DNA of 38,332 bases from a virus. Below are positions 1-18,867 of this stretch, one piece after another. Below the pieces are notes generated by a model, which made no database searches, had not been told where the DNA came from, and was given only the letters and a program-made list of their open reading frames with translations. The position numbers were made by a program, and so were the translations under genes. The stretch lies in the IMG/VR virus record IMGVR_UViG_3300009176_000052, positions 1-38,332 of that record. The stretch is one strand, 5' to 3'. The first letter of the stretch is position 1. Each line of letters starts with the position of its first letter.

Positions 1-230
1 CCGCCGCGGCAGGCGCCGACGTCGTCCACATCGCCGGCCACACCGAGCGGCAGCCGGGCGGCGGCGAGCAGGCGCTGTTGTTCGTCGGCGCGTCCGGCCA
101 GCTGGAGCGCGTGTCGTGGAAGACGATCGTCGCCTCGCCCGCGCTCAGCCGCGGCGTGGTGGTGCTCGCCGCCTGCGAGACGCTTCGCCCGCCCGCCTCC
201 TCCGCCACGCGCGCGATGAGCCTCGGCGCC
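1..230 (+). pseudogene. CHAT-domain protease, fragment cut at both ends
   Basis: The reading frame that starts at base 3 encodes the core of a CHAT (caspase HetF-associated with TPRs) domain. HIAGH near base 30 carries the catalytic His and VLAACET near base 165 carries the catalytic Cys. CHAT domains are proteases found in bacterial immunity and regulated cell-death proteins, and are common in Myxococcota. The frame is open to the left edge, so the N-terminal part lies outside. To the right, similarity stops soon after MSLGA (216-230), where the helix and strand after the Cys should follow. A phage HNH nuclease sequence takes over in the same frame. I read this as a host gene interrupted by prophage integration. 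It could instead be a real CHAT-HNH fusion, which seems less likely. Confidence 0.7.
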
Positions 231-605
231 CTCTGGCTCCTGCACCACGGCAAGGCCCGAGAGCTCGTCATCGACGAATACACGCGGTGGCTGCGCTCAA
301 GGCCGTGCGCCATCTGCTGGGCCAAACCCCCGAGCGAGGTCCACCACTGGCCGACGCGCGGCTCGCTCGGCTATATCGACGACCTGCGCGCCATGCCGCT
401 TTGTCGCATTGACCATCTCCTGGCGGGAGGGGAGAGGGTGGTGCACGAGGGCCGGGTCCTCACGCCGCACACGCAAAAGGCGCAGGACCGGGCCCTCCTC
501 GCGACGCAGGCTTATGCGCTGCTGCATCTCCCTATCGAGACCCTGGAGGCCATCCTCGAGGCTCGACGGGCTCAGCAGGAGCGTTGCCCTCCGTTTCCGT
601 TCTGA
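216..605 (+). CDS. HNH endonuclease, phage type
   Basis: About 129 residues. The pattern C-A-I-C, then SEVHHW, then DDLRAMPLC and RIDH matches the small zinc-binding HNH nucleases of phages, with two Cys in the first knuckle, the paired His of the active site, and a second Cys/His group. Such enzymes nick or cut DNA, often in packaging or recombination. The ATG at 216 is the first usable start beyond the host-like CHAT sequence, but no clear ribosome-binding site precedes it. In the integrated state the frame is continuous with the CHAT fragment. The 3' end overlaps the convergent gene at 532-747 by 74 bases. The domain call is firm; the start is uncertain. Confidence 0.7.
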   Translation: MSLGALWLLHHGKARELVIDEYTRWLRSRPCAICWAKPPSEVHHWPTRGSLGYIDDLRAMPLCRIDHLLAGGERVVHEGRVLTPHTQKAQDRALLATQAYALLHLPIETLEAILEARRAQQERCPPFPF

Positions 606-1930: not shown

Positions 1931-2512
1931 CTAGCGCCTTTTCTTCTTGCGTGTGGAATAGCGGCCCGTGAGAACGGCCATCTCGCTGTCGATGGCGCGC
2001 TTCCGGCGAATGCACGCCTCCAGCTCGGGGCCAGGAGGGAGCGTGAGTATGCGGCGGCGAAGCTCGCGCTGCTCCCGTGCGAGCCGGCAGCGCGTGAGCT
2101 GTACTGGCGGCCTCACCTTCTGCGCCTTGGGGCCGGGCGGGGAGGTCAGTACAAAGACCGCGTTCGAGGCGCGCGCCTCCCGGGGATGGATGTTCTCGAG
2201 CCGGAGCAAGGGGCCTTTTACCCGGTCCGCGAACCGCCCTGCGGGGTCGGCCTGGCGCAGGTGGCCGGCCTCGTTCTCGAGGGCTGCGCCGCCTCCTCGC
2301 AGAAAGCCCACCACCCGGAGCACGAGATAGCGCGTCGGCAAGCCCGGCAACGGGGCCACGACCTCGTCCCCCTCCTGGATCGTCGCGAGCCAGCGCATGC
2401 GGGTCAGCGCCCTCGCTTGACGCTCTCGGCGCACCCGGGAGCCCAGCAGCCGGTCGAGAAACGTGGGTTCATGGTCCCTGAGAAACCGCCAGTGACTCGC
2501 GAATCGTCGCAC
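1931..2512 (-). CDS. Hypothetical basic protein, first gene of left operon
   Basis: About 193 residues from a GTG at 2512 with AGAGGG six bases upstream. The frame stays open to 2623, but that extra part runs into the structured non-coding region and has no better start. The middle contains GDEVVAPLPGLPTRYLVLRV, a beta-rich stretch that could be an SH3- or OB-like fold. The C-terminus is helical and ends in a run of Lys and Arg (KKKRR), which suggests nucleic-acid binding. It is the first gene of the leftward operon, so its promoter should lie between 2513 and about 2650. The function is unknown. Confidence 0.5.
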   Translation of the reverse strand: MRRFASHWRFLRDHEPTFLDRLLGSRVRRERQARALTRMRWLATIQEGDEVVAPLPGLPTRYLVLRVVGFLRGGGAALENEAGHLRQADPAGRFADRVKGPLLRLENIHPREARASNAVFVLTSPPGPKAQKVRPPVQLTRCRLAREQRELRRRILTLPPGPELEACIRRKRAIDSEMAVLTGRYSTRKKKRR

Positions 2513-2559
2513 TCGTTGCCCTCTTTTCGTTAGTGGCCATAGGACAGCCGGACCTTGCG

Positions 2560-3325
2560 GCGTCCCCCCTCTGAGCCGAGGAGGCACAGGAGGTACTAGC
2601 TCGCAAGATCTGGGGAGCGGCACCGGAAACCCATCCGGCCCTGCGGTCGCTCAGCGCAGTCGTATCTGGGATCCGGGTTCCGTACGCCGATGCTCGCCCA
2701 TCCCCACCTTTGCTCCGCTCTTCGCTCGGCGGGGGGTCCTCGCATCGGGTCCTGCTCCTAACGAGATGCGCGCAGCGAGGGTCGGCTCGTCTTGGAGTGC
2801 TTCGCTGGACGGCACTCCCCCCCCTCGCGTGGAATCGGGCGCAAACCCGACCGCCCCACGGTCCGCTCTTTCAGCGCGCTCAGCCGGGTGGCATCCCCGG
2901 TTACCCCATTGCGGACCCCTCGACTCTGCGGGGTCCTGCTTGCCAGCGCGCACCCCAATCGGGACAGGATTCCCGACGAAGGCGCTGGCGAATGAGACTG
3001 GCAAGAGAAGACGAGGGCAAGGCCAGCCCCCGTCCAGAGTCGCCGTCGGTGTGCATATGGCCTGTAAGGCGGACCGGCTCAAGCAGGAGGCCATCGCGCC
3101 TCCCTCGTCCGGGGCGATGAAGCAAGGGCGATACAAAGTGCTCTCTGGGTCACTCTGGGAGGTCCCCGCTAGGGGGACCTCGGCTCCCGTGCTTCGGGCC
3201 CAGGCGCGTCGCCCTACAGCGAGCAGGGCATGCTCGCGCGGTGATGCCGCGCACGCCGTCCCCCTGTCGCTGTCGTATCTCGCCTGGGTCTGCAAAAATA
3301 AACTTGCGGGGCCAGATCGCGCGCG
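2560..3325. ncRNA. Candidate large structured non-coding RNA
   Basis: No convincing gene is found here on either strand; the open frames lack recognisable protein motifs and good ribosome-binding sites. Perfect, often nested stems follow one another: 2641-2645/2655-2659 inside 2625-2636/2669-2681; 2741-2746/2765-2770; 2775-2781/2822-2828 enclosing 2794-2800/2812-2818; 2835-2839/2846-2850; 2884-2888/2896-2900; 2913-2919/2930-2936; 2942-2949/2982-2989 enclosing 2959-2964/2971-2976; 3086-3091/3098-3103; 3126-3131/3209-3214 enclosing 3159-3167/3173-3181 and 3186-3189/3195-3198; 3219-3225/3231-3237; 3284-3287/3312-3315. The size and density recall giant phage-borne RNAs such as GOLLD and ROOL, but I cannot assign it to a family. 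The strand is not settled by the wobble pairs. Confidence 0.5.
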
Positions 3326-3480
3326 ATATGAGGGGCGCTCGTCTGGTCGTCCGTCCTTTCTCTGGGTTTCTCGCCCTTGCGTCGGTCGGTCGTCAGTCGG
3401 AGAACGCCAGCTCGGTTTCACGCGCACGTAGCCTTGGCAAGGGAGAAGGGCGCGGGTTAGCGAGTGGCGGTCTCGGGTTT

Positions 3481-3602
3481 TTAAAAAGGGTCACATCATC
3501 GGGGGGCCGTAATACCCCGACCCACGACAGCCAGCCAAATAAAAAGCATCTCCCCCTCGGGGGACCCCGGGTATACCCTCCCCTCTGGGAGGCCCCGCAC
3601 GC
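3481..3602 (+). promoter_or_regulatory. Hairpin-rich leader of the early operon
   Basis: Three perfect stems stand in tandem before the first early gene: TCGGGG (3499-3504) with CCCCGA (3515-3520), TCCCCC (3551-3556) with GGGGGA (3559-3564), and CCTCCC (3577-3582) with GGGAGG (3587-3592). Between the last two lies the palindrome GGGTATACCC (3569-3578). The only Shine-Dalgarno-like sequence for the ATG at 3603 is the GGGAGG arm of the third stem, so translation could be controlled by opening it. The palindrome might also be a repressor operator. No clear -35/-10 pair was identified. Confidence 0.45.
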
Positions 3603-3968
3603 ATGCCCCTTTGCGCAGTCTGCGACTCCACCAACGAGACCACGCGCCTCTGTGCGACGTGCCGCCGGGACCCAGCCAATGGCGCCTGGCAAGCCACCCC
3701 GCACGCGCAGGAGGGGGCCGGAGGGGCTCGCTACGCGGTGACCTGGGACCCTGCGCGCCATGGCCGCCCGCAGGCCGTCCAGACGCTTGCTGAGCGCATC
3801 GCGTGGCTCGCAGCGTACGGGAGGCGGGTCGAGACCCGGGTCTACCTGGATGCGAGGGGGAGGCGGAGGGGGCCGCGCGAGAGGCGCCGCTATCTCGGCC
3901 AGCGGTCTATCGCGAGGCTGGCCGGGTGCTCGAGGGCCTACGTGCGCAAGGTGCTGGGGCGAATTTAA
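3603..3968 (+). CDS. Zinc-ribbon and HTH protein, first early gene
   Basis: 121 residues. The N-terminus has two CxxC pairs (CAVC at residue 4 and CATC at residue 17), a likely zinc ribbon. The C-terminal 25 residues (RSIARLAGCSRAYVRKVLG) read as a helix-turn-helix, like the end of many phage regulators. Between them is a basic, Arg-rich section. As the first gene of the plus-strand early block, behind a hairpin-rich leader, it is a good candidate for an early transcription regulator. That role is inference from the motifs and position. Confidence 0.6.
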   Translation: MPLCAVCDSTNETTRLCATCRRDPANGAWQATPHAQEGAGGARYAVTWDPARHGRPQAVQTLAERIAWLAAYGRRVETRVYLDARGRRRGPRERRRYLGQRSIARLAGCSRAYVRKVLGRI

Positions 3969-4035
3969 TACTGCTCCTCGCGCTGAGCCGGGTATAAAGG
4001 GCCGCTCTTAAACGCGCCGACCCCGGAGACCCAAA
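3969..4035 (+). promoter_or_regulatory. Possible promoter and RBS before the exonuclease gene
   Basis: The 67-base gap holds TATAAA at 3993-3998 within CCGGGTATAAAGGG, a possible -10 element in otherwise GC-rich DNA. The -35 position has no good match. GGAG near 4024 is the ribosome-binding site for the ATG at 4036. The stretch CCGGGTATA also occurs at 3567-3575 in the leader of the preceding gene, which hints at a shared regulatory element. Confidence 0.3.
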
Positions 4036-4965
4036 ATGAAGACGGAATCAGAGTGGCTCGAGGTCCGCCGCCAGACCATCGGCTCGAGCGAAAGCCCGAT
4101 TGTGCTCGGCCTGAGCCCGCACGCAAAGCCCGTGGAGCTCTGGGCGCGCAAGCTCGAGCTTATCCCGGCCTGGGAGGAAACGCCCGAGATGCGGCGGGGC
4201 AAGCGCCTCGAGCCCTATGTCGCGGCGGAGTATGAGGAGGCGACGGGGCGCAAGCTCGTGGACCTCGGCCGTACGCACTCCGTCGTGAGCGAGGAGGACC
4301 CCTTGCTGTCGGCCACCGTCGACCGCGTCATCGTCTCATCCCGAGGGGGCGATGTCGTGGAGCAGGGTCTACCCGGCGACCGATGGTCGGGCGATGGAAT
4401 CTGCGAGCTTAAAACGGTCAAGGGCTGGCTCGCGCACGAGTGGGCCGAAGAGCCGCCGGTGCACTACCAACTCCAGCTTCAGCACCAGCTCTTTGTCATG
4501 GGCAAACGCTGGGGCTCGCTCGCGGCCCTCATCGGCGGGGACGACCTGGTCTATTACGATTTCGAGCGCGACGACCAGGTCATCGCCATGCTCCGCGAGG
4601 AGGCCCACGTTTTTTGGCGCTACGTCGAGCGCAGGGAGCAGCCCCCGGTGGATGGAAGCGCCTCGACGTCGAAGGCCCTGGCGGCGCTCTTCCCGCGGGC
4701 TGAGAGGCGCGAGGTCGCGCTGCCCGCCGACGCAGACCAGTGGGCCGAGGAGCTGGCCGCCTGCAACCGCGAGGTCAAGGCCGCGTTGCTCGAGCGCGAC
4801 CTTTACCGCAATCAGCTACGGGCCGCCCTCGGTGCGGCCGATGCGGGTATCACCCCCGGCGGCATCCGGTTTACAAACCGCCTCCAGCAGCGCAAGGCCA
4901 TGCTGGTGGCCGAGTCCGAGTTTCGCGTTTTGCGCCGCGTCGGCGGCGACCCAGAGGAGAGCTAG
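4036..4965 (+). CDS. YqaJ-family viral recombinase (lambda Exo-like exonuclease)
   Basis: 309 residues, a normal length for the family. TIGSSESPIVLG (about 14-25) is the conserved N-terminal signature. The PD-(D/E)xK active site is visible as Glu59 in RRGKRLEPYVAAEYEE, Asp96 in LSATVDRVI, and Glu124-x-Lys126 in ICELKTVKG, followed by the Gln-rich helix HYQLQLQHQLFV. Lambda-type exonucleases digest the 5' strand of double-stranded ends to expose single strands for annealing. The C-terminal ~100 residues form a helical extension. The RecT gene follows after four bases, so the two act as a pair in phage recombination and possibly in concatemer formation. The call is firm. Confidence 0.93.
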   Translation: MKTESEWLEVRRQTIGSSESPIVLGLSPHAKPVELWARKLELIPAWEETPEMRRGKRLEPYVAAEYEEATGRKLVDLGRTHSVVSEEDPLLSATVDRVIVSSRGGDVVEQGLPGDRWSGDGICELKTVKGWLAHEWAEEPPVHYQLQLQHQLFVMGKRWGSLAALIGGDDLVYYDFERDDQVIAMLREEAHVFWRYVERREQPPVDGSASTSKALAALFPRAERREVALPADADQWAEELAACNREVKAALLERDLYRNQLRAALGAADAGITPGGIRFTNRLQQRKAMLVAESEFRVLRRVGGDPEES

Positions 4966-4969
4966 AGAG

Positions 4970-5998
4970 ATGACCACGAAGAGAGAGACCGCGAAAGAGA
5001 CCCCGCCCGAGACGACTCCGCAGGCCGTCCCGAAGGGCCCCACGAGGCTCGAGAAGCTGAGCCTCTACCTCGTATCCGAGGCACCCAAGCTCAAGGAGCT
5101 GGCGCCGCCTGGCTACGACTGGAGGCGCGGCGCGCGCATCCTGGCGATATCCGCCATGCGCGTTCCCACCCTCCTGCAATGCACGCCGCAAAGCATCGTG
5201 CGCTCGCTCGGCCGCGCCTTCGAGCTGGGCCTCGACCCGGGCGGCGCGCTCGGCGATGCGTACCTAATTCCGAGGCGCATGGGAAAGGCGGTGCTCGAGC
5301 GCTGGAAGGGCACTGACTTTGACCATGAGTGCGAGCTCCAGCTTGGCTATCAGGGGCTCATCACGCTGGCTCGCCGCTCGGGCGAGGTGCAGCGCATCGA
5401 GGCGCGCTCCGTCTACGTAGGCGACCACTTCCGCCTGGCGTACGGGACCCGTCCCATCATCGAGCACGAGCCGCGCTTTGTCGCCGAGGCTGAGAAGCGC
5501 GGCTACTACGCGGTGGCCTTCCTGCGCGAGGGGGAGCCGCAGTTTGAGTACATGACCTTTGAGCAAGTCGTGGAGGTGCGGAACAAGGCCGCGGCGGATA
5601 CCCCGGCGTGGCGCGAGTGGTTTGACGAGATGGCGAAGAAGACCGTCATTCGCCGGCTGTCCAAGCTCCTCCCGAAGAGCGCCGAGATGCGCCACCTCCT
5701 CGAGCGCGAGGATGCCACGAGCTTCGGCGACCTCAACGTCATCGACGACGGCGACAGCCCCGAGGGGGTGGTGACCTACGACAAGCCGCATCAGGTGGGC
5801 GGCAAGCTGCGCCAGGTGATGCAGGACCAGCAGGCGAAGAAGGCCCGCCCCGTCGTCATCGAGCACGTGCCTCCGGTCGCCCCGTCGCCTCCTCCGCCCG
5901 AGTCTCCGACGCCTGCTCCCGATGAGTACCCGCCCCATCCCGACGAAGAGGACGATGTCGACATGCCCGAAGAGCGCGAGCCGGGAGCCGACGGATGA
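4970..5998 (+). CDS. recT: RecT-family single-strand annealing protein
   Basis: 342 residues from ATG 4970, with GGAGAG upstream. The longer open frame to the left is only an overlap with the exonuclease gene. A Lys/Glu/Pro-rich N-terminal tail is followed by the RecT core: TPQSIVRSLGRAFELGLDPG, DAYLIPRRMG, LGYQGLITLARRSGEVQRIE and VYVGDHFRLAYG, all in the usual order. The last 60 residues are Pro- and Asp/Glu-rich and probably disordered, as in other RecT proteins that bind SSB or partners. It anneals complementary single strands made by the YqaJ exonuclease. It ends in the octapeptide EREPGADG, which the next gene product also ends in. Confidence 0.93.
   Translation: MTTKRETAKETPPETTPQAVPKGPTRLEKLSLYLVSEAPKLKELAPPGYDWRRGARILAISAMRVPTLLQCTPQSIVRSLGRAFELGLDPGGALGDAYLIPRRMGKAVLERWKGTDFDHECELQLGYQGLITLARRSGEVQRIEARSVYVGDHFRLAYGTRPIIEHEPRFVAEAEKRGYYAVAFLREGEPQFEYMTFEQVVEVRNKAAADTPAWREWFDEMAKKTVIRRLSKLLPKSAEMRHLLEREDATSFGDLNVIDDGDSPEGVVTYDKPHQVGGKLRQVMQDQQAKKARPVVIEHVPPVAPSPPPPESPTPAPDEYPPHPDEEDDVDMPEEREPGADG
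5972..5998 (+). repeat. Gene-boundary repeat, copy 1 (ends in EREPGADG)
   Basis: This 27-base stretch at the end of recT differs at only two positions from 6481-6507 at the end of the next gene. Both encode EREPGADG plus stop, and both carry the overlapping start of the following gene. Such shared boundary sequences can serve as crossover points in module exchange between phages. Confidence 0.75.
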
Positions 5999-6507: not shown

Positions 6508-7076
6508 GCCTCAAGCTTGAATGGATCCCTCTCCTCGAACTGCAACCCACTCCTGGCAACCCAAAGAAGCACGACGTCATCGCCATCGCGCAGAGCATTG
6601 TGCGTTTCGGCTTCCTCGACCCTATCGAGCTCGACGAGGCGACCGGCCGCGTGACGGCTGGACACGGACGCATCTCAGCCCTGCGGGCGCTCCATGACGG
6701 CGAGGTAGAGTGGGCGCGCGAGATGATGGGCGCGCGCGGTGGAGAGCCGCCAATGAACGTCCAGGTACTCGACGGCGGACGATGGGCGGTGCCGGTCATC
6801 CGCGGCCAGCAATTCGCCTCGCCCGCCGAGGCGCGCGCCTATCTGCTCGCCCACAACCAACTCACCATCGCCCCAGCCTGGGACGACGACCTGCTTGCGC
6901 AGATGGTAAAAGACACAATGGGCCTCGTGGAGAGCATCCCGGGATGGACCAGCTACGCACTCAGCGATCTTGTGAACGGCCCATCATTCGAGCCAGAGCT
7001 GGCTGACAACCAGCCCCGGCTCGACACGGCGCGATTGCACACATGCCCGGCCTGCGGCAATACTTTTAAGACATGA
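6504..7076 (+). CDS. ParB/Srx-fold nuclease-like protein with zinc tail
   Basis: 190 residues from GTG 6504, which overlaps the previous stop. Residues 5-65 follow the ParB N-terminal pattern: IPLLELQPTPGNPKKHD, then SIVRFGFLDPIELDE and GRVTAGHGRISALRAL. The GHGR box is the nucleotide-binding motif (CTP in true ParB). There is no HTH domain, so this is the phage ParB-like form usually placed next to DNA-modification genes rather than a partition protein. YLLAHNQLTIAPAWDDDLLA is the usual motif after the core. The last residues (CPACGNTFKT) are a CxxC knuckle. It overlaps mom by ATGA, which suggests a shared role. Confidence 0.82.
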   Translation: MSLKLEWIPLLELQPTPGNPKKHDVIAIAQSIVRFGFLDPIELDEATGRVTAGHGRISALRALHDGEVEWAREMMGARGGEPPMNVQVLDGGRWAVPVIRGQQFASPAEARAYLLAHNQLTIAPAWDDDLLAQMVKDTMGLVESIPGWTSYALSDLVNGPSFEPELADNQPRLDTARLHTCPACGNTFKT

Positions 7077-7768
7077 GGCTGAAGCTCGACTGGGTCTCAC
7101 AGGAGGCCGCGCGATATGCAGTGATGCACTGGCACTACTCCCAGCGCATGCCGAGCGGCAAACCGGGGAAGGTGGCAAGGATCGGGGTCTGGGAAGACGG
7201 GCGTTTTTGTGGGGCCGTCCTCTTCGGAAGTGGCAACTTCCAATGCTGCCAGCCCTACAAATTGCACCACACAGAAGTGTGCGAACTCGCGCGCGTAGCG
7301 CTGAGCTGCCATGACACGCCAGTCTCTCGCATTGTCAGCATCGCAGTGCGCATGTTGCGCGCCCGGAACCCGGGGCTGAGGCTTATCGTCTCATTCGCTG
7401 ACACATCACAAGGCCACCACGGTGGTATCTATCAGGCCGGCGGGTGGGTCTACGTCGGGGCTTCTTTTGACCGCGTTTATCGCATCCTGGGTACAGTGAG
7501 CCACGCAAGGTCGACCCATCACCGCTACGGAACCGCGTCTCTTGCGTGGCTCCGCCAAAACGTCGACCCAAGGGCTGAGTGCATCATCACTGAGCCCAAG
7601 CACAAATACTTGATGCCTCTCACCCCTGAGACGAGGGCACGCATTCAGCCCTTGTCCCTCCCATACCCAAAGCGCGCCGAAAGCAAAGCAGGCGTTGCGC
7701 TCGTCGACCAGACGAGAGAGGGCGGTTCAACTCCGACCTCGGCGCTCCATCCTTCCGACTCTGACTAG
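7073..7768 (+). CDS. mom: Mom-family adenine-modifying enzyme
   Basis: 231 residues; the start overlaps the ParB-like gene by ATGA. The fold is GNAT-like. HWHYSQRMPSGK (about 19-30), the strand around VSFADTSQGHHGGIYQAGGW (106-125), and the late LPYPKRA are hallmarks of the Mu Mom family. Mu Mom converts adenine in DNA to N6-carbamoylmethyl-adenine and so shields phage DNA from many restriction enzymes. The same reaction is inferred here from family membership. In Mu the gene needs com and Dam methylation for expression; no com is seen here, but an adenine-methyltransferase fusion gene lies 0.9 kb downstream. The DNA directly after the stop codon is a remnant of a tape-measure gene, a sign of transfer. 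Confidence 0.85.
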   Translation: MRLKLDWVSQEAARYAVMHWHYSQRMPSGKPGKVARIGVWEDGRFCGAVLFGSGNFQCCQPYKLHHTEVCELARVALSCHDTPVSRIVSIAVRMLRARNPGLRLIVSFADTSQGHHGGIYQAGGWVYVGASFDRVYRILGTVSHARSTHHRYGTASLAWLRQNVDPRAECIITEPKHKYLMPLTPETRARIQPLSLPYPKRAESKAGVALVDQTREGGSTPTSALHPSDSD

Positions 7769-7927: not shown

Positions 7928-8710
7928 ATGCCCACCCCTGATATCAATGGGCGCGTCTATTGGCGCGCGCTCTCCTACGCCACGCGCGCCTGCCCCACGA
8001 GCGACGCCTCGCAGAGGCTGCAACACCTCGTCTTCCACGGCCCCCGGATTATCTCGAGCGACGGCGAGCGCTGGCACCTCGGCATGCTGCCTGCCGAAGC
8101 CGCGCTCGCCCCCGTCGCCGTCTCGCGCTCCTCGGTGACGGAGCTCATCCTCACGCTCCAGTACGCTTACAAAATGGCCAAGCGTCGGTGCGGCGATTTC
8201 TTCGTCCGCCAGGACGGGCCGCGCGTGGAGGTGCACTACGGCAACACGGTGCCGCTTATCCACGAGCTACAGCAAGTCCATATGGGCGGCCTCCCCGATA
8301 TCTGGGAGGAGCCGGTGCGCGCCGACGCGCCCATCCTCGACGGGCCGCCGCGTGTCTCCTGCGAGGCCATGCGCGATGCGGTGTCCTGGTATCGCGCATG
8401 GGACCATGACCACGGGGACCTCACGTGGCGAGGGCAAGGCCCCGACCGGCCGGTGCGCCTCGACCTGCACGTCGAGCAGGAGCACGTGGCCTCGGCCATC
8501 CTCCTGCCGATGGGCCGCCCTGCGGCGCAGCTCCCGCTGGATGAGCCCCTCTTCAATGGCGGGCGGGCAGTGGGCCAAAGCATCCTGCACCTCGAGATTG
8601 ACACGCCAGCGGCGCCGCCTGAGGTGCTGGCGACCGTCGAGGCGAAGGCGCGGCGCGAGGCGAGGGCAGCGAAGAAGAAGGCGAAGGCCCCGGCCGAGGT
8701 CGCCTCGTGA
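7928..8710 (+). CDS. Hypothetical protein, possibly sliding-clamp-like
   Basis: 260 residues from ATG 7928 behind GGAGGC. The beginning (YWRALSYATRACPTSD, then LQHLVFHG, then SSDGERWHLGM) resembles the first DnaN-type repeat, in which a helix is followed by strands and a D-G-x-R turn. The spacing of beta strands in the rest would allow two clamp domains. The tail is a Lys/Ala helix (RREARAAKKKAKAPAE). If it is a clamp, it would help processive DNA synthesis or recruit the neighbouring methyltransferase. The similarity is weak by eye, and it could be an unrelated phage protein. It overlaps the next gene by GTGA. Confidence 0.4.
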   Translation: MPTPDINGRVYWRALSYATRACPTSDASQRLQHLVFHGPRIISSDGERWHLGMLPAEAALAPVAVSRSSVTELILTLQYAYKMAKRRCGDFFVRQDGPRVEVHYGNTVPLIHELQQVHMGGLPDIWEEPVRADAPILDGPPRVSCEAMRDAVSWYRAWDHDHGDLTWRGQGPDRPVRLDLHVEQEHVASAILLPMGRPAAQLPLDEPLFNGGRAVGQSILHLEIDTPAAPPEVLATVEAKARREARAAKKKAKAPAEVAS

Positions 8711-10239
8711 AGCGAGCGGCAGCTCGCGCACCTCGCATCAAGCCGCCGCCCACGCAGACCACCGAGCCCGCCGCCGTCTGGGTGCCCATCGACAACCTCA
8801 TCCCCTGGCCGAAGAACCCTCGCCGTAATGATGCTGCCGTTGACGTGGTGGCGGCGAGCATCAAGCGATTCGGCTTCGGCGCCCCGCTCATCGTGCGCAC
8901 GGCGAATCGGATGGTCATCGCCGGCCATACCCGACTGAAGGCCGCGCACAAGCTCGGGCTCACCGAGGTCCCCGTTCGCTTCCTCGACATCGCCGAGACC
9001 GAGGCGGAGGCGATGGCCATTGCCGACAATAAGACCGGCGAGCTTGCCACCTGGGATGACACCGCCCTCGGAGAGATTCTCTCGACGACGCCCAACCTCG
9101 AAGGCCTCGGCTTCAGCCAGAGCGACCTCGACGACCTCTTGAGCGGCCTGAGCTCCAATGACCCACCGGGGCCTGCGGAAGGGCAGCTCATCGCGCCCTT
9201 CCCCTACTTTGGCGGAAAGCGCGACGTGGCCGTCGAGGTGTGGCGGCGCTTCGGGTTGGTGCGCCAGTACGTCGAGCCCTTCTGCGGGTCTGCCGCGGTA
9301 CTCCTCGCCGCGCCACAGCCGGCGGCGCTCGAGGTGGCCGGGGATGCCAATGGCTTCCTCGCCAACTTTTGGCGCGCGGTCGTCATGCAGCATCTCGAGG
9401 TCTGCCGCTGGGTCGATTACCCGGTCTCGCACGTCGACCTCGGGGCGCGTCATGGATGGCTCATGGCGCAGCGCGAGCGCATCGCGGCAGAGATGCAGGA
9501 CCCCATGTGGCCAGGCGATGCGCAGGTCGCCGGCTGGTGGCTTTGGGGGCAATGCGCGTGGATCGGGAGCGGGTGGTGCGAGTGGGGACGCGAGACGCCG
9601 ATGCCACCGCCGCCCGGCGCCACCGGCGTCGACGACGCCGGTGGAACGATTCCGCTCATCGGCAATGCGGGACGAGGAGTGCAGGCCGGAGGGCAGGTGC
9701 CGCACGTGGGCAACGCGGGGGTGGGAGTTCAGGCTCTCGGGCAGATACCGCAGATGGATGCCGGGCGTGGCGTGCTCGCCACGCCCGGCGAGGCCGCCGG
9801 CACGGGCGTCGGCCCTCCCTGGACCAGCGCCGGCCGCACGGCGCTCGAGTGGCTCGGGCGCATCGCTGCGCGCATGGAGCGCGTTCGCATCGTTCACGGA
9901 ACGTGGGACCGCTGTCTCAATCACCACTTCGGCGGGGATGACACGGCGGTTTTTTTTGACCCGCCTTATCTGGGATACGAGGAGCCCTACAGGACGGCGC
10001 CGGTCGCCGCCGATGTCGCCGCGTGGTGTCGCGAGAACGCTCGTCTACGCATCGCACTCTGCGGGCACATCGGCGACTACGAACTGCCAGGATGGACCGT
10101 CTATGAGTGGTCGCGCCGCCGGCTGACCTACTCGGGTGGCGGGACGCGCCATCGTGAGGCCATCTGGTTCTCCCCGGCCTGCCTCAATCCGGGTGACCCC
10201 GGAGACCCGCCCGAAGACCCCGCCACGCCCCTGATTTAG
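8707..10239 (+). CDS. ParB-like / D12-class adenine methyltransferase fusion
   Basis: 510 residues from GTG 8707. Residues ~25-115 are a ParB N-terminal domain: LIPWPKNPRRND, SIKRFGFGAPLIV and MVIAGHTRLKAAHKLG. From ~163 the D12 (Dam-like) N6-adenine methyltransferase begins with PFPYFGGKRD (SAM-binding FGGK), then VEPFCGSAAVLL, and the catalytic DPPY at about 418-421. Between them, about residues 315-360, three 16-residue imperfect repeats of the GNAGRGVQAGGQ type form a glycine-rich insertion. A run of eight T lies directly before the DPPY codons. The enzyme should methylate adenine in DNA, either as self-protection or as a regulatory mark. The neighbouring Mom and ParB-like genes point to a DNA-modification module. 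Confidence 0.9.
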   Translation: MKRAAARAPRIKPPPTQTTEPAAVWVPIDNLIPWPKNPRRNDAAVDVVAASIKRFGFGAPLIVRTANRMVIAGHTRLKAAHKLGLTEVPVRFLDIAETEAEAMAIADNKTGELATWDDTALGEILSTTPNLEGLGFSQSDLDDLLSGLSSNDPPGPAEGQLIAPFPYFGGKRDVAVEVWRRFGLVRQYVEPFCGSAAVLLAAPQPAALEVAGDANGFLANFWRAVVMQHLEVCRWVDYPVSHVDLGARHGWLMAQRERIAAEMQDPMWPGDAQVAGWWLWGQCAWIGSGWCEWGRETPMPPPPGATGVDDAGGTIPLIGNAGRGVQAGGQVPHVGNAGVGVQALGQIPQMDAGRGVLATPGEAAGTGVGPPWTSAGRTALEWLGRIAARMERVRIVHGTWDRCLNHHFGGDDTAVFFDPPYLGYEEPYRTAPVAADVAAWCRENARLRIALCGHIGDYELPGWTVYEWSRRRLTYSGGGTRHREAIWFSPACLNPGDPGDPPEDPATPLI

Positions 10240-18016: not shown

Positions 18017-18448
18017 TTAGCGGGTGATGGCGCTGGCGACGAGGCTGAGCACGCCGATGGCAAAGACCACGAGCAGCTTCCACCAGTGGGCCCACGGATT
18101 CGCCTGGGGCTCCTCGAGCGGCGCAGGCGCTGCTACTGCCGCGGGTGGACCCGTTCCCGGGTCGCTGCGGCGCCTGACCGAGAGGTCAAGCGTGGGCTCA
18201 TCGCGCAAGCGCATGCGGATGGCCGAGGCCACCCCGACCAGGTAGGAGCGGCTGTCGTGGGTATGGGCGGCGGTCTCGATGGCAGCGTCTGCCGCGGCGC
18301 GCAGCTCCCGCCGAGTGGCATAGCCTATCTCGGCCGGGAGCTGGTCCACGCGCTCGCGTAGCTCGCGGAGGGAGACCGCCTGGGAGTCGAGCCGCTCGCT
18401 GATACCGGCGAGCTTGCCGACGACCGAGGCAATCTCCTCCTCGGTCAC
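18017..18448 (-). CDS. Coiled-coil protein with C-terminal membrane helix
   Basis: 143 residues from GTG 18448 (GTGA overlap). Residues 1-60 form a coiled coil (ISERLDSQAVSLRELRERVD). A Pro-rich linker follows, and then one hydrophobic helix at the very C-terminus (LLVVFAIGVLSLVASAI). Tail-anchored topology in the lysis area could suit a holin-type or spanin-type helper, or a DUF-type phage membrane protein. The function is not known. Confidence 0.6.
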   Translation of the reverse strand: MTEEEIASVVGKLAGISERLDSQAVSLRELRERVDQLPAEIGYATRRELRAAADAAIETAAHTHDSRSYLVGVASAIRMRLRDEPTLDLSVRRRSDPGTGPPAAVAAPAPLEEPQANPWAHWWKLLVVFAIGVLSLVASAITR

Positions 18449-18867
18449 TTGCCGGTGGCCTCGGCCGCTTTCGCGGCGAAGGCCCGAGCTATCCGGTCGC
18501 GCTCTTCCGCCTCGCGCCGCGCCTCCTCGTCTCGCTCGAGGTGGGCCCGCTCGGCGGCCGCCTGCTCGGCTTTGCGTTTGGCCTTGCGCTCGAGCACGGG
18601 CCGGGCAGCATCGCAGTCGAGCCTATCGAGCGCCTCCGCCTCGCTGCCGCCCTGCGTGTCCTTGATGACGCGCGCGTCGCTGCGCAGGATGGCGGCGGCC
18701 GTGGCGGCCTCGATGAGGGCGCGCTCCTTGTCCGTCAGCTCGTCCTCCTCGACCTCGTAAGCGGGGCAATCCTGATAGACGCCGCCCTCCACTACGCGCC
18801 GGCAGGAGACGTACAGCTTGCCGTCGAAAATGTGCACTTCATGTCGTTCTGTTTTGATGTCGGCCAT
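18445..18867 (-). CDS. Hypothetical protein after the tail fibre, coiled coil
   Basis: 140 residues, ATG 18867 with GGGGAG upstream. The first 40 residues are beta-rich (HEVHIFDGKLYVSCRRVV). The last 70 form a highly charged helix (KRKAEQAAAERAHLERDEEA). Its position just after the fibre gene suggests a fibre-assembly chaperone, as in many tailed phages. That is inference from order only. Confidence 0.55.
   Translation of the reverse strand: MADIKTERHEVHIFDGKLYVSCRRVVEGGVYQDCPAYEVEEDELTDKERALIEAATAAAILRSDARVIKDTQGGSEAEALDRLDCDAARPVLERKAKRKAEQAAAERAHLERDEEARREAEERDRIARAFAAKAAEATGK

Follow-up and report, generated by a model that had tools for sequence, protein, structure and literature searches.

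The lambda immunity/early region is one type of divergent early control region in phages, and divergent promoter regions typically hold operators. GOLLD, a giant phage RNA, rises in expression during phage lysis. Both GOLLD (RF02032) and ROOL (RF03087), a second giant RNA, often lie near tRNA islands (PMC12286853, PMC6582537), and the structure of GOLLD exceeds 800 nt (PMC12286853). We analysed a virus record of 38,332 bases (the window), in which an initial annotation had put forward a 766-nt block, 2560-3325, as a candidate ornate RNA of this giant kind. Our analysis points to something smaller. The gap that holds the block is noncoding in composition, and about 3117-3310, together with a hairpin at 2936-3008, is fold-prone. 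With a little less than even confidence, we prefer to read the gap as a control region between the divergent operons of an orphan myophage. It would carry a structured element of compact size, probably a small RNA or an RNA leader, with early-operon promoters in its right part and linker in the rest. Like the lambda type, the locus has a gap between oppositely directed early operons and contains dyad elements; unlike it, the gap is long (~1.1 kb), and neither a repressor gene nor repeated operators nor sigma-70 promoters were recognised.

Across the gap, a leftward operon (an exonuclease gene at 1150-1902 and a 193-aa gene at 1931-2512) faces a rightward operon made up of a 121-aa gene (3603-3968), a YqaJ recombinase gene (4036-4965), RecT (4970-5998) and, farther along, a Mom-family gene (7073-7768). 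The placement between a leftward and a rightward operon in the initial annotation was correct, and the genes on both sides have genuine codon signal. The left edge of the gap is the GTG start of the 193-aa gene, with GAGGG before that start, and the right edge is the ATG of the 121-aa gene:

1931-2512, minus strand: gene flanking the gap, encoding a 193-aa protein of unknown family (codon z 5.5)
2513-3602, no strand assigned: noncoding divergent intergenic region of ~1.09 kb, without coding signal on either strand
3603-3968, plus strand: first gene of the early operon, encoding a protein of 121 aa that has two CxxC motifs and ends in a helix-turn-helix-like part (codon z 3.5)

The exonuclease matched RNase_T (E 7e-7), and searches of Pfam, PHROG and NCBIfam with the 193-aa gene gave no match. 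In the 121-aa protein, the zinc ribbon and helix-turn-helix were assigned by eye; its match to the double zinc ribbon family was weak (E 0.025) and under the cut-off. Farther right, genes for tail sheath, baseplate J, gp25 and base V indicate a contractile-tailed phage, and we read the record as an orphan, otherwise unrelated myophage.

By codon statistics, the ~1.1-kb gap is the longest stretch in the window without coding signal. From ~2480 to 3600, codon-position GC bias is absent in all frames and codon scores are negative in six of six, and the codon use of the longest open frames resembles that of their own shuffles, which bears out the claim that the region holds no gene-like frame. The noncoding stretch reaches ~3602, past the limit of 3325 given before. 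For the neighbouring genes, codon z was 3.5 (121-aa), 4.0 (Mom), 5.5 (193-aa), 9.8 (exonuclease) and 11.6 (YqaJ), with a training set that took in the exonuclease, YqaJ and Mom genes and left out the 193-aa and 121-aa genes. We regard the stretch as noncoding but leave a little room for a gene that is atypical or decayed.

The giant-RNA idea had started from a list of many perfect stems. All five stems that we checked are exact (2942-2949/2982-2989, 2959-2964/2971-2976, 3126-3131/3209-3214, 2775-2781/2822-2828 and 2794-2800/2812-2818), but the number of stems of at least 5 bp is at chance level for the composition: 61 were observed versus 57.3 +/- 7.0 in 30 dinucleotide shuffles, and other 766-nt windows of the phage hold 61.6 +/- 15. 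Stems of at least 7 bp are above shuffles (11 versus 4.5 +/- 1.8); another window of the phage has 13, the maximum elsewhere. As the case stands, the main lesson is that a giant RNA cannot be identified from lists of perfect stems in GC-rich DNA.

Folding of the block as one unit of ~760 nt is not confirmed: against shuffles its z is only -1.31 on the plus strand and -1.51 on the minus strand. Taken as a 1-kb unit and compared by mean local z, it comes 90th on the plus strand and 17th on the minus strand among 465 positions. The left third (2512-2860) and, in all, about half of the 766-nt block are without excess structure. An Rfam scan, proposed together with the giant-RNA idea, gave no match, GOLLD and ROOL included: nothing was found over the whole window at gathering thresholds or over 2000-4000 at E<=5. 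The GOLLD and ROOL models run directly gave no match at E<=10, a result for which, in the case of ROOL, the control genomes were silent too. A lone weak Rfam match, mir-4738 (E = 2), was rejected as far under its cut-off. ARAGORN found no tRNA in the 38 kb. The locus resembles GOLLD as a long noncoding stretch inside a phage genome, and differs from it in the absent model match, in the absence of a tRNA island or embedded tRNA, and in structure limited to ~190-270 nt rather than >800 nt (PMC12286853); GOLLD is highly structured over hundreds of nucleotides, whereas here z is -1.3/-1.5 over 766 nt. ROOL is likewise noncoding and set in phages, but neither a match to its model nor a tRNA island near the gap, the setting of ROOL (PMC12286853), was found.

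Excess structure is limited to about 3117-3310 and, to a lesser degree, 2881-3008. The 240-nt window 3121-3360 had the lowest z of the 192 plus-strand and 191 minus-strand windows sampled (-5.05 and -5.23, versus a phage mean of -0.5 +/- 1.3) in a scan that took in 433 of 686 windows and covered about the first 23 kb. The 176-nt block 3117-3292 reached -4.39 on plus and -5.41 on minus, and no shuffle was as good. Over 400 nt, the minus strand of 2960-3359 gave z -5.6, at or past the values of -1.4 to -5.2 obtained over both strands when seven genuine RNase P RNAs were folded in the same way. Folding energy below that of shuffled sequence was found only for 3117-3292 and 2936-3008, where three elements can be drawn, with z-scores that are rough (25-200 shuffles) and borders picked after the fold was seen:

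2936-3008, minus strand: extended hairpin, minus favoured (z -4.56 on minus versus -2.51 on plus)
3117-3196, no strand assigned: P2, a branched structured domain of 80 nt (z -3.13 on plus, -5.15 on minus)
3194-3292, no strand assigned: P3, a structured domain formed by an imperfect elongated hairpin of 99 nt (z -5.24 on plus, -3.67 on minus)

In P2, a closing stem (3119-3124/3190-3195) encloses a hairpin and a perfect 9-bp inverted repeat (3159-3167/3173-3181). The repeat is exact; nothing close to it occurs a second time in the window, and it was not found in viral contigs. The hairpin at 2936-3008 has four G-U pairs on the minus strand and none on the plus strand. A compact kernel of ~190 bases plus one smaller hairpin is real in being unusually fold-prone. 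Of the proposed structured noncoding RNA between the operons, what stands is a real noncoding stretch in which 3117-3310 out-folds nearly all else sampled in the phage; a large ornate RNA of ~760 nt is not supported. Elsewhere in the window, 18121-18480, apparently inside genes, came second in fold-proneness when 240-nt windows were sampled (z -3.8 to -4.7, both strands). As windows inside genes reach z -4.7 there, the excess structure in the gap is moderate.

The right part of the gap, about 3290-3600, would hold the early operon's promoters and its ribosome-binding region:

3478-3602, plus strand: likely start region of the rightward operon, with A/T-rich spots and an inverted repeat CCTCCC/GGGAGG, as judged from sequence and fold

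The inverted repeat overlaps the GGGAGG that is probably the ribosome-binding site for the 121-aa gene, and the two halves of the repeat form a perfect hairpin at 3579-3592. A sequence nearly identical to the 15-mer around that site (CTCTGGGAGGTCCCC) is present at 3153-3167, within the structured block. A sigma-70 scan recognised no promoter.

We consider an atypical or decayed gene in the gap very unlikely. The plus frame 2505-3431 is stop-free over 308 codons and the minus frame 2651-3490 over 279; against shuffles, the longest run has P = 0.026 and the second-longest was matched in none of 500. However, the codon use of both frames is like that of shuffled sequence (z 0.5 and 1.0), their translations resemble GC-rich noise, and protein-family searches, tblastn against phages and viral contigs gave no match or relative. 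A giant RNA of ~760 nt acting like GOLLD or ROOL is not supported and is highly improbable: the noncoding length, the phage setting and the enrichment of stems of at least 7 bp fit it, against the weak whole-block z, the unstructured left third, the lack of tRNA and the lack of any Rfam match above chance. It is also improbable, though less so than a decayed gene, that the kernel is a locally lucky fold of GC-rich noncoding sequence, with structure that has no function in itself. Such an origin would agree with the chance-level count of stems of at least 5 bp, the global z of only -1.3/-1.5, the genic windows down to z -4.7, and the finding of one 100-nt window among 456 at or below -4.5 over 4000-38200. 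Against it, none of the sampled 240-nt windows lies lower than the block on either strand, and three separate elements each reach about -4.6 to -5.2 on the better strand.

The main rival to an RNA is a DNA-level dyad element, which we rate as unlikely. Here the dyads in 3117-3330 (the perfect 9-bp repeat, the 99-nt hairpin and a 12-bp palindrome, ATCGCGCGCGAT, at 3316-3327) would be operators, or a replication or recombination site adjoining the RecT/YqaJ operon. Both strands fold about equally well, and operators are expected in a divergent promoter region. Because both strands fold, RNA and DNA-level functions are not separable by folding. The main weakness of the DNA reading is that neither iterons nor repeated operators are present: the direct repeats are no more than short pairs, and the 9-bp repeat lacks a close second copy. 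The G-U pairs that the hairpin 2936-3008 gains on one strand also argue against it and favour a minus-strand RNA. The preferred reading, a control region with a structured RNA element, draws on the noncoding composition (codon-position GC, codon scores, no protein families), on the divergent genes that flank the gap and have genuine codon signal, and on the local excess structure in 3121-3360, 3117-3292 and minus-strand 2960-3359. Its main weakness is the mixed strand preference, as P3 favours plus while P2 and the left hairpin favour minus. It also lacks a recognisable promoter, a terminator fitting a leftward RNA that ends near 2936, and any homologue, hence covariation support, and its z-scores stand beside genic windows to -4.7 and borders chosen after the fold. 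On this structured-RNA reading, transcription of the fold-prone block, more likely in the leftward direction, would give a 5' leader or a separate small RNA of ~200-400 nt. This RNA may regulate the leftward operon in cis or be a small regulatory RNA, and the remainder of the gap would be unstructured linker. A more specific proposal, in which minus-strand ~2936-3310 would encode a structured phage RNA of ~375 nt (branched domain, 99-nt hairpin and extended hairpin) that is new and of no known family, we consider unlikely. A real RNA in the compact block would be an orphan regulatory RNA at the junction of the two early operons of the phage, a place where control elements decide gene order. 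As the case stands, the testable part of the gap is ~200-375 nt.

The gap is ordinary in kind, and its sequence is without known relatives. No homologue was found in phages or plasmids (blastn), in viral contigs reached via neighbouring genes, or in 474 bacterial genomes. Single-protein scans (YqaJ, tail sheath, RecT, the 193-aa gene and the gap's own frame) led to no related gap, and neither did the 37, 80 and 80 loci from Mom and RecT-alignment scans. A single-sequence covariance model of 3117-3292 gave three weak matches (L016-L018, E 0.02), which overlie a helix-turn-helix gene and were rejected as chance. DNA search of 95 genomes from the phylum of a Rokubacteria MAG found no relative. 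The initial annotation had also suggested a phage of Myxococcota, for which a CHAT-domain fragment at the left end is an indirect hint; DNA, neighbouring-protein, CHAT-fragment and RNA-model searches of 379 genomes from the phylum of a Myxococcales MAG matched neither that fragment nor the gap nor the neighbouring gene.

The first ~230 bases (window 1-240) encode this partial CHAT peptidase domain, a weak match (E 0.0057), which continues in frame into a DUF968 HNH-like phage protein (3-605); near base 230 there is what looks like a junction, host-phage or chimeric. In the early operon, the Mom-family DNA modification gene at 7073-7768 (Pfam E 4e-47) is preceded by a ParB-like gene, and this Mom/ParB pair was found again in many viral contigs (L002-L034). 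At 8707-10239, a 510-aa frame is ParB-like in its N-terminal part, and its C-terminal half has DNA methyltransferase-like matches.
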